In this document: positions 39,770-64,000 of the stretch, in pieces
How positions within the stretch are numbered: the stretch's first letter is position 1
How the letters are laid out: each line of letters opens with the position of its first letter
DNA from: Gillisella vitis
GTDB lineage: Bacteria > Pseudomonadota > Alphaproteobacteria > Rhizobiales > Rhizobiaceae
Direction of reading: 5' to 3'
NCBI RefSeq assembly: GCF_001541345.2
Contig: NZ_LMVL02000001.1
Location: forward strand, 62,001 to 126,000
DNA length: 64,000 bases
The notes under the pieces: model-generated
What the model was told of the DNA's origin: nothing
What the model saw: the letters and a program-made list of their open reading frames with translations, nothing else
Database searches by the model: none
Program-made: the position numbers and the translations under genes

Positions 39770-40010
39770 GCCCGCACCTCCAAAACGCGATGGAAAAGAG
39801 GGGTGGCGCACGAACGAGCACCGGTCATGCTGGAACGCTCGCGCGAAAAACACGTGGATGAAATTGTCATTGCGTTATAATCCGCCGGCCATGATTGCTG
39901 GCGGTACCGACATCACGAGAGCGCCGTAAACTCTCGCCAGAGGGGCCCGGCACCATAAGTTCACTCCGCAAAGACCGATGTCTTGCAATGCGGCAGCGTA
40001 TGTTAACTAC
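39770..40010 (-). promoter_or_regulatory. Long structured 5' leader and candidate promoter of the DUF475 gene
   Basis: On the minus strand TTGACC (rc of 40027-40032) is followed 16-19 bases later by TAGTTAACAT (rc of 40003-40012), a plausible promoter. The leader then contains a CGAGAG/CTCTCG stem (39915-39936 region) and GC-rich arms around 39890-39960. TerC-like genes are often governed by the Mn-sensing yybP-ykoY riboswitch, but I could not match its conserved core here. The remaining bases to 40106 show nothing else clear. Confidence 0.3.
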
Positions 40011-62303: not shown

Positions 62304-62666
62304 ATGAAATATATTTTCCCAATTCTATTGGTCACAGCAATGCCGGCCATGGCCCAATCGCCGCAGCTCGAACAGGCTTGTCATACGGTGCTGCAAAATT
62401 TTCTGATGAAGCCGGATGTGAAAATCGGCCAGACGCAGAGCTTTCCTGAATTAACCCCTCCAGGGGCACGCATCACCTTTTCCGAGCGACAGGATGCCGA
62501 TGCCTCGAAGATGGATGATGTCATCGATTGCGAGTTTCAAAAAGCGACCGCACCTTTCGGTCTGACCAAGTTCTGCATTTCCAGCACCTGCTATTCGCCA
62601 GGGGAGCGCGCCGACGACCGCCGCCGCCGTTTCGAGGAAATGCAGGCGTTGATGAACAGAAAATAA
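62304..62666 (+). CDS. Small secreted hypothetical protein
   Basis: A 120-residue protein with a short signal peptide (MKYIFPILLVTAMPAMAQ). The mature part holds four cysteines, two in a CISSTC pair, plausibly forming disulphides, and ends in an Arg-rich helix (RADDRRRRFEEMQALM). A GGGAG site precedes the ATG at 62304. No family is recognised. It is divergent from the BA14K gene. Confidence 0.75.
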   Translation: MKYIFPILLVTAMPAMAQSPQLEQACHTVLQNFLMKPDVKIGQTQSFPELTPPGARITFSERQDADASKMDDVIDCEFQKATAPFGLTKFCISSTCYSPGERADDRRRRFEEMQALMNRK

Positions 62667-62772
62667 CGGCTTTGCTGCATATCCTTGAAGGATTGCCGAG
62701 AGGTGGCACTTCGGAGCTGGGAATGCATGACTGCCAGACAACATTCCAAGTCAAACACAATTTTGAGATGAC

Positions 62773-62934
62773 ATGACACAACACGCTAGCAAACCAAGAC
62801 GTCGCATGCAGATTTTCGTCGGCTCCCTTTTCATCATTGGCTGCCTTATCGGTGGCTACTACGTGATTGGCTATCATCCCGGTGAAGTGGAACCAGAAAA
62901 CCCACTCAACAGCTCCAGCCAAACTAACCCGTAA
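62773..62934 (+). CDS. Small single-pass membrane protein, 53 residues
   Basis: The frame begins MTQHASKPRRRMQ, with a basic N-terminus, then one transmembrane helix (IFVGSLFIIGCLIGGYYVIG, residues 14-33) and a polar tail rich in Pro, Glu and Ser. It has the charge pattern of a small inner-membrane protein with its N-terminus inside. The ribosome site is weak (TGAGATG). It is too short for a domain call. Confidence 0.55.
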   Translation: MTQHASKPRRRMQIFVGSLFIIGCLIGGYYVIGYHPGEVEPENPLNSSSQTNP

Positions 62935-62998
62935 GGTCTGCTTTCAGCATCAGAGCGAGAAAACAGAAGCTGATATTTCATATATATAAGAGAAAACA

Positions 62999-63040
62999 AT
63001 GGCTTCCTGTGTAGTCGCTCTTCGTGACTTACGCTTCTGA
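62999..63040 (+). other. Possible 13-residue leader ORF
   Basis: An ATG at 62999 opens a 13-residue frame (MASCVVALRDLRF) ending in TGA. It follows the AT-rich TATATATAAG stretch (about 62980-62990), which may be a promoter -10. It may be spurious. It is recorded because two further short frames precede the exporter gene. Confidence 0.25.
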
Positions 63041-63057
63041 AATCATCCAGTCACGGC

Positions 63058-63092
63058 GCAACAGCCTTCCTTAGCAGAAGGTCGGCTGTTGC
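63058..63092 (+). other. Stem-loop in the exporter leader
   Basis: GCAACAGCC (63058-63066) pairs with GGCTGTTGC (63084-63092), with a short internal CTTC/GAAG pairing. There is no U-run on either strand. It lies between the small membrane-protein gene and the leader peptide frame. Confidence 0.45.
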
Positions 63093-63202
63093 CGAAATAC
63101 CGCAGTCCCTGCGTTTTATCCCAAAATTGCAAATCACTTATTGGCTTCAGAATCGAGTCGATCTAAAAACCATTTATGTTCAACACCAATCAGGGAGGCT
63201 TT

Positions 63203-63271
63203 ATGGCATATTTTTCCACCTCCCCGGTGGCCAGCGCCAATTTCATGTTGGTAGGCGCCATCCGCAGTTAA
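63203..63271 (+). CDS. 22-residue leader peptide upstream of an ABC exporter
   Basis: An ATG at 63203 with an excellent AGGGAGG ribosome site (63192-63198) opens a 22-codon frame beginning MAYFSTSPVASANF and ending GAIRS, with TAA at 63269. Immediately around the stop is a small stem CGCAG/CTGCG (63264-63268, 63274-63278) and after it GTAACGG/CCGTTAC (63283-63289, 63295-63301). A strong ribosome site on so short a frame, next to hairpins and 150 bases before a transporter gene, is the pattern of a ribosome-arrest leader peptide. No homologue is recalled. Confidence 0.6.
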   Translation: MAYFSTSPVASANFMLVGAIRS

Positions 63272-63390
63272 CCTGCGTGTGCGTAACGGTCAGTCCGTTA
63301 CCTTGTGTTGAATCCGGCTGGTCCGGGAATAGAAATTTCTCCCTCTAACGCCACTTTATCGCGTCTCCGCGCGGTTTCCATTCTATTCAT

Positions 63391-63432
63391 ATGTTGGAGC
63401 CGGCTCGCGCCGGAATTTTCCTATGGCTTTAG
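63391..63432 (+). other. Second upstream ORF overlapping the exporter start; start-region hairpin
   Basis: An ATG at 63391 opens a 13-residue frame (MLEPARAGIFLWL) whose TAG (63430-63432) lies inside the exporter gene, seven bases past its ATG at 63423. The hairpin CCGGC-TCGC-GCCGG (63400-63413) partly covers the exporter's likely ribosome site (GGAA at 63412-63415). Translation of this frame would open the hairpin, so it may act with the leader peptide to control the exporter. Confidence 0.4.
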
Positions 63433-64000
63433 GTTATAAATCTCGCCGTGGCGGGGCATTTCGCAGCGTTTTCGGTTTTTGTGCGGTTCATTGGCGCCGG
63501 CAGCCGGGGCGTGTGGTGTTCATGCTGTTTGCCGTATTGCTTTCCACTTTGGCGGATGTGTTGACGCCGCTGTTTTCCGGTCGTTTGGTCGACGCGGTTG
63601 TCTCGGGCCGTGCCGATGACAGCCTTGCGTGGAACAGCGCGCTTGCCGCCTTCGCCTGGCTGATGGCGCTTTCCGCCGGAGCTGTCTTGCTGCGCCATGC
63701 AACGTTTACCGCCATTATCGGCTTTACGCTGCGCTCCATGTCGGACATTGCCGCCGATGCCTTCTCTCGCATTCAGCGCTTTTCCAGCGATTGGCATGCC
63801 AATAGTTTCGCTGGCTCGACGGTGCGCAAAGTGACACGCGGCATGTGGGCACTCGACCTGTTGAACGACACGGTTTTCGTCGCGCTGTTTCCCTCGCTTG
63901 TCATGCTGATCGGTTCCACTGTGCTCATGACCTGGCATTGGCCGATGATGGGCCTGTTGGTCGGGGTCGGGTCCGTTTGCTTCGTGTTGTTTACGGCAAT
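63423..64000 (+). CDS. ABC exporter, transmembrane domain (3'-truncated by window edge)
   Basis: The frame opens MALGYKSRRGGAFRSVFGF and stays open to the end of the window (about 192 residues). It shows the start of a type-1 exporter transmembrane domain: a polar N-terminus, TM1 (VVFMLFAVLLSTLADVLTPL), FSGRLVDAVVSG, TM2 (ALAAFAWLMALSAGAVLL), the long cytoplasmic loop RSMSDIAADAFSRIQRFSSDWH and TM3/4. The ATPase domain lies beyond the window. Substrates of this group include lipids and drugs. The ribosome site GGAA lies in a hairpin. Confidence 0.85.
   Translation, partial: MALGYKSRRGGAFRSVFGFCAVHWRRQPGRVVFMLFAVLLSTLADVLTPLFSGRLVDAVVSGRADDSLAWNSALAAFAWLMALSAGAVLLRHATFTAIIGFTLRSMSDIAADAFSRIQRFSSDWHANSFAGSTVRKVTRGMWALDLLNDTVFVALFPSLVMLIGSTVLMTWHWPMMGLLVGVGSVCFVLFTA

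Follow-up and report, generated by a model that had tools for sequence, protein, structure and literature searches.

The window, viz. the whole 64,000-nucleotide stretch of DNA that was analysed, ends within a plus-strand gene for an ABC exporter of the ExsA family (63423-64000, running off the window), whose product in the genome is 603 aa long (L058:7423-9234). Upstream of this gene, on the same strand, lies a leader ORF of 22 codons (63203-63271), which reads MAYFSTSPVASANFMLVGAIRS followed by a stop codon, and whose Shine-Dalgarno (SD) sequence GGGAGG (63193-63198) is placed 4 nt 5' of its ATG and is complementary to the sequence CCTCCC (63219-63224) within the leader ORF. As stated in a preliminary description of this DNA, the TAA that ends the leader (63269-63271) is placed within the loop of a small stem CGCAG/CTGCG (63263-63267/63273-63277, plus strand), and a further stem-loop, GTAACGG-TCAGT-CCGTTAC (63283-63289/63295-63301, plus strand), stands 3' of it. 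A stem of the CGCAG/CTGCG type, with TGA in its loop, is also present in the related locus L012, where the counterpart of the second stem is CAACGG/CCGTTG, and stems analogous to the first are seen in L013/L064 and L062. A probable promoter on the plus strand (63141-63168), consisting of a -35-like TTGGCT (63141-63146) and a -10-like CTAAAA (63163-63168), precedes the leader, and comparable pairs were recognised by eye at the equivalent place in relatives; a scan with the sigma-70 consensus gave no promoter at 63141-63168. Based on these promoter-like pairs, the leader transcript probably begins at about 63175, some 28 nt before the leader ORF. The span given in the preliminary description is 62999-63440, of which the part from 62999 to 63140, being situated upstream of the likely promoter, is probably not leader RNA. 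An inverted repeat, GCAACAGCC/GGCTGTTGC, is found upstream of the promoter at 63058-63092 and is present, with changes, in close relatives. Farther upstream on the plus strand (62773-62934) there is an ORF of 53 aa with a hydrophobic stretch (MTQHASKPRRRMQIFVGSLFIIGCLIGGYYVIGYHPGEVEPENPLNSSSQTNP), and a seemingly related ORF, as judged by eye, precedes the leader in L012.

The exporter is 70.3% identical, over 340 of the 342 residues of its membrane part, to an exporter encoded beside queC on pSymB of S. meliloti, where the gene lies between the exo genes and queC. Due to this synteny in S. meliloti the exporter is named as ExsA, and it belongs to a family which is related to succinoglycan in that species and is not a known drug pump. 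Passages of the literature state that exsBCD correspond to queCDE, with a cited title from 1995 calling exsA a gene for an ABC transporter (PMC3568095), that ExsA matters for high-molecular-weight succinoglycan and that exsA affects the size classes of this polymer (PMC1403797), and that exsA is up-regulated under attack by Myxococcus (PMC10315480). Around the copy in the window, no exo or que genes were recognised by eye among the ORFs of at least 180 aa in 16 kb; the exporter is followed there by a convergent pair of genes resembling, again by eye, a histidine kinase and a response regulator.

Related loci were collected by several searches. Among 151 family genomes the leader DNA as a query matched 2, one of which is the genome of the window itself, and a longer piece gave matches in 21 of 63 genus genomes, 16 of which represent the exporter together with the leader and 5 of which (L019, L020, L022-L024) are short matches of 25-45 bases that were kept outside the worked-out set. 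A scan of public genomes using an alignment of the membrane part of the exporter yielded at least 584 relatives, and the set of 92 loci used below consists of the window, 11 genus loci (L005-L012, L014, L015 and L021) and the best 80 of these at least 584 relatives. Left out of this set, as certain or apparent repeats of the window or of named loci, were L001-L004, L013, L016-L018, L025 and L029-L033; the window and L005-L011 are more than 90% identical and hence are not independent of each other. An order-wide search found the exporter at E <=1e-80 in 24 of 150 genomes, and of the 24 loci besides the window 19 were placed and five (L150, L157, L159, L160 and L162) were left out. A leader was counted as strict when GGAGG or GGGAG was followed after 3-10 nt by ATG, 9-32 codons and a stop, with dinucleotide shuffles serving as the control. 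A search with the leader peptide pattern gave 44 matches, of which 30 were translated (5 of them leaders and 25 other sequences) and 14, without a locus, were left unread. The pattern matches L034 and L035 are located in a sugar-ABC-like operon and were rejected as leaders.

At 90 of the 92 loci a strict leader stands ahead of this ABC exporter, as compared with 1.1% of the shuffles, so that the 22-codon frame with a strong ribosome site, noticed earlier in the window, is indeed present, and in the order-wide set it is found at 13 of 19 loci versus 1.4% of the shuffles. The length of the leader varies between about 11 and 29 codons. One of the two loci missed in the set of 92 (L060) has a leader with the SD GGGGG, and in the other (L130) the region is replaced; the six order-wide misses are L144, which has a TTG-start leader when inspected by eye, and L147, L148, L149, L151 and L163. 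It is established by this comparison that the loci share one conserved leader ORF, whose occurrence is wider than the 22-codon case in the window. The locus L130, from Mesorhizobium erdmanii USDA 3471, carries other DNA in place of the leader region while retaining the split ribosome-binding site (described below) and the exporter, and it is a natural leader-loss allele. The genome G484 has two copies of the exporter, one of them with leader and split site and the other with neither (L153 and L163), and the exporter homologs at L148, L149 and L151, which belong to a single other family, differ at the N-terminus and lack both a leader and a strict split site. The preliminary description knew of no such leader for this exporter group, and none was found among the best matches in the open-licence literature, where a paper on a split ribosome-binding site at the exporter gene was likewise not found, or in Rfam, in which the leaders of the window and 6 related loci gave no match above the gathering score (the sole match at E <=5 was below threshold and on the other strand). 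Terms for this locus are absent from the portions considered of an S. meliloti Ribo-seq paper (PMC10117765). Elsewhere in the window, a terC RNA (RF03067) scores above its gathering score at 39898-39958 on the minus strand.

The start of the exporter has an unusual construction. It was earlier claimed that the SD of the exporter lies inside a CCGGC/GCCGG stem (63400-63404/63409-63413), but the SD GGAG (63396-63399) stands directly 5' of this stem. The plus-strand region 63396-63422 is thus made up of the SD, the hairpin CCGGC-TCGC-GCCGG (63400-63413) and a spacer (63414-63422), and the distance from SD to AUG is 23 nt in the linear sequence and 9 nt once the hairpin is folded. A strict arrangement of this kind, with the SD at the foot of a strong hairpin, is present in 82 of the 92 loci and in 7 of 4600 shuffles; its linear SD-AUG distance is 21-31 nt and its folded distance 6-10 nt, the latter being 8-9 nt in 76 of the 82. 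In eight of the remaining loci the hairpin is weaker or the spacing is longer, and in two (L081 and L136) there is none by the criterion used. In the order-wide set 11 of 19 loci pass, against 7 of 950 shuffles. To gauge the background, 327 long ORFs from 464 kb of this genome were considered: a site resembling a split ribosome-binding site occurs at some candidate start in 10 of them, and in 3 when an ordinary SD is lacking; the exporter, being cut by the window end, is not among the 327. The pairing of the hairpin is maintained in 99.2% of the cells in Ensifer/Phyllobacterium, 2 of its 6 pairs showing both-sided changes, and in 96.9% of the cells in Mesorhizobium, where 9 cells, all at one pair, are changed on both sides. 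The compensatory stem changes that the preliminary description proposed looking for are seen in this hairpin in these two groups, but none of its 5 pairs has changed on both sides in the window's own clade. Comparison of the sequences establishes a split ribosome-binding site at the start of the exporter, with a hairpin placed between SD and AUG.

A second frame of 13 codons (63391-63432, plus strand), reading MLEPARAGIFLWL and a stop, overlaps the exporter ATG at 63423, and it had been proposed as a second leader. The frame exists, but it is without an SD and it is not conserved beyond near-identical relatives, being found in the window and in 7 of 7 of these. Among the other Rhizobium-type loci an overlapping out-of-frame ATG ORF is seen in 2 of 21, with different peptides, and is absent from L012; some overlapping out-of-frame ORF occurs at 41 of 84 loci in other clades and has an SD at 2 of the 41. 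The candidate second leader was rejected on these grounds, and the view that two leaders precede the exporter is not borne out.

In terms of the peptide that it encodes, the leader differs greatly between groups. In the Rhizobium/Agrobacterium-type clade, to which the window belongs, it has the core M..FSxSPVASA with variable tails (MAYFSNSPVASASKS, MMAYFSKSPVASANIATGVRSGAMPGVAA and MAVFSNSPVACAQIA), a divergent example being MMFSASSRYAG in L021. The leaders of Mesorhizobium (MPGFDIVMRGREA and similar), Ensifer (MPAFSFSLRGGVQF and MTVFSFSLSGDPIFSV), Phyllobacterium (MAAFTMSPRGGARS) and Aminobacter (MPEYDMSSRGSNRGH) have their own peptides, and loci from the order-wide search encode unrelated ones, e.g. 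MISSHSQIVCPRSMMFWLGMYAAC. The alignment across related exporter loci that the preliminary description called for hence gives a conserved peptide in the window's clade, but peptides that are unrelated between families. The ratio dN/dS, which was pooled over sequence pairs that share ancestry so that its values should not be interpreted as probabilities, is 0.38 in frame versus 1.27 and 1.85 in the shifted frames for the Rhizobium-type leaders (n=26, 19 distinct), 0.60 versus 2.03 and 1.46 for those of Mesorhizobium (n=31, 14 distinct), and 1.00 versus 1.32 and 0.84 for those of Ensifer/Phyllobacterium (n=20, 16 distinct). Further, codon 12 of the Rhizobium-type leader specifies Ala in 26 of 26 sequences by means of four codons, and codon 11 is AGC or TCN, both for Ser, in 22 of 26. 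By these comparisons the FSxSPVASA core is under codon-level selection in the window's clade, and it represents a candidate nascent-chain motif. In S. meliloti (L184 3660-4040) the Ensifer stretch CTCCCTACGGGGCGG is kept but another frame is read, giving the peptide MQAFSSPYGADPRS. This frame shift and the contrasts in dN/dS suggest that what matters is the peptide in the window's clade and, in the Ensifer clade, the RNA. Due to the unrelated peptides in different families and the in-frame value of 1.00 in Ensifer/Phyllobacterium, no single arrest peptide can be the general mechanism.

The RNA of Ensifer/Phyllobacterium has six helices with 29 pairs in all, which are formed in 96.7% of the cells (slid controls, 37-50%), and 12 of these pairs are changed on both sides; on 4 of 5 measures of covariation none of 500 shuffles scored as high, whereas the fifth, which counts further pair types, was reached by 450 of 500. 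These covarying helices are established by comparison. In one of them codons 10-11 of the leader are predicted to pair with a segment X some 60-75 nt downstream, all five pairs being possible in 18 of 20 loci and four of five in the other 2. A competing helix between segment X and the H3 arm was not upheld, as it is perfect in 9 of 20 loci only. For the window's clade the hairpin at the exporter start is the only consensus structure. The leader RNA of the window (63175-63440) has a fold z of -2.2, with 5 of 200 shuffles as good, and both MFE and centroid predict a possible long-range helix around the leader on the plus strand, in which GTTCAACAC (63178-63186) pairs with GTGTTGAAT (63305-63313). 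Contiguous counterparts of this helix, some with G-U pairs, are present in L012, L014, L064 and L070, and it shows a weak cognate preference (p 0.042 and 0.017), which is confined to the window's clade. Tests of pairing between the leader and the exporter start, 36 in all (12 segment tests in each of three clades), gave no clear cognate preference; the best of the 36 (p 0.029) is a hint, in the window's clade only, of a helix between the 5'UTR and the middle of the region.

Considering these results together, the reading that we favour, with a probability of roughly 0.6, is that the leader ORF controls the exporter in a manner that depends on the position of the ribosome and that acts on the split ribosome-binding site, where both the signal and the direction of the regulation are what we infer. 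The exporter mRNA would begin, judging from the promoter-like pair, about 28 nt before the strong-SD leader ORF, on which ribosomes would load. Their progress or pausing on the leader would then set the folding of the approximately 150 nt between leader and exporter, and this fold would in turn set the output of the exporter, whose SD would need the intervening hairpin to be folded in order to stand at a workable distance of 8-9 nt from the AUG. The nascent FSxSPVASA probably makes the ribosome pause in the Rhizobium/Agrobacterium-type clade, and in the Ensifer clade it would be the leader RNA, and not the peptide, that is kept. A more specific proposal, which we consider speculative and improbable as it stands, is that the folding of the bridging hairpin is itself the regulated step, being set by the position of the leader ribosome. 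In the ON state the hairpin would be intact and the SD at 8-9 nt, and in the OFF state upstream RNA would take the arms of the hairpin, leaving the SD at 21-31 nt and partly covered; such an OFF state is suggested by the MFE of the window, in which both arms are paired elsewhere. If true, this would represent a split ribosome-binding site that is under regulation, has an arrest leader coupled to it and is kept over several bacterial families.

The same fold also bears on a different explanation, viz. that the locus is a translational attenuator of the erm/cat type, where a ribosome stalled on the leader by a drug would free a sequestered exporter SD. A leader with a structured spacer agrees with this, as does the window MFE, which pairs the exporter SD with 63343-63346 and dismantles both hairpin arms (63323-63326 with 63400-63403, and 63314-63318 with 63409-63413). 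In the predicted folds of L006-L011 the SD pairs with the spacer TTCC (63418-63421 in the window), and from these folds and the window MFE some masking appears possible. Among 83 loci with the strict hairpin, the hairpin is present in the MFE of 46, and at least 3/4 of the SD bases are paired in 66, including 28 of the 29 Rhizobium-type loci, which makes an attenuator of the erm/cat type slightly less unlikely. However, the mean probability of the SD being paired is 0.75 and is likewise 0.75 after shuffling of the stretch that separates leader and SD (0.87 vs 0.80 in the 29 Rhizobium-type loci), and that of the hairpin is 0.61 vs 0.60; folding alone therefore decides nothing for or against masking. 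Further, the partners of the SD vary between loci, that at 63314-63318 is altered in L006, and the pairing of the SD region shows no cognate preference, in a comparison of little power as the SD is nearly invariant. The masked exporter start of the preliminary description is thus retained as a prediction of the MFEs, but one that equals shuffled RNA and is without cognate preference. The target, moreover, is ExsA-like and no link of it to drugs was found, and an attenuator of this type is unlikely.

Leader translation could alternatively decide on the formation of a terminator before the exporter, as in the transcription attenuation of the BmrB type, for which the parts of PMC4191407 considered here provide a precedent at an ABC exporter. 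Although there are 3 terminator-like sites in 62600-63700 where 1.5 are expected, such sites occur in 26 of the 92 loci versus 16.3% of shuffles, a weak excess, and in 1 of 19 order-wide loci versus 13.2%. This explanation is quite unlikely, although a Rho-dependent form of it may apply. It is also conceivable, with a small chance of being correct, that the leader is no switch and that a short translated ORF loads ribosomes early and shields the mRNA from decay or Rho. It would then be readily understood that different families have unrelated peptides and that the frame has shifted in S. meliloti, but not that FSxSPVASA is selected at the codon level in the window's clade or that a helix between leader codons and downstream RNA is conserved in Ensifer/Phyllobacterium. 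Lastly, the leader peptide might act in trans in the manner of the S. meliloti peTrpL, a rhizobial precedent (PMC7298713, in part). This is very improbable, as the peptide is unrelated between families while its position and SD are kept, and all 5 of the MAYFSxSPVASA matches (among the 30 translated pattern matches) precede the exporter.

The control of the exporter by leader-ribosome position, as favoured here, shares features with several known systems. The translational attenuators ermC and catA86 have a short leader with a strong SD and a structured spacer, and the same is seen here; they differ in that the masking of the exporter SD is without comparative support and the exporter is not a known resistance gene. 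In Bacillus subtilis, according to the portions of PMC4191407 that were consulted, the small leader ORF BmrB stands before the ABC exporter bmrCD and its translation is needed for induction, and the exporter loci described here share this placing of a small leader ORF ahead of the exporter gene. However, an intrinsic terminator lies within bmrB, whereas the present loci are without a consistent terminator and have a split ribosome-binding site. The peptide peTrpL of S. meliloti, which passages of PMC7298713 link to the regulation of resistance genes, is similarly a rhizobial leader peptide, but it is part of the trp attenuator rnTrpL and acts in trans, and it is likened here without a comparison of sequences. 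The ExsA locus of S. meliloti, beside queC/exsB, encodes the same exporter family and also has leader and split site, but its neighbours are exo and que genes and its leader peptide MQAFSSPYGADPRS is unlike that of the window. In regard to the split site, a literature search on stem-loops between SD and start found no paper, and a search for the exporter in phages found no match. A likeness exists with phage T4, for whose genes 25 and 38 the parts of PMC3014915 considered here describe a structure between SD and AUG that cuts the spacing from 27 to 11 nt and from 22 to 5 nt, similar to the reduction from 21-31 nt to mostly 8-9 nt at the exporter loci. In contrast to T4, the split site of the exporter is bacterial, conserved over several families and coupled to an upstream leader ORF. 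A leader ORF is thus joined with a split ribosome-binding site before a single exporter family, as seen in Rhizobium, Agrobacterium, Ensifer/Sinorhizobium, Phyllobacterium, Mesorhizobium and their relatives, and this would be an example of bacteria making conserved use of an arrangement known from phage T4.
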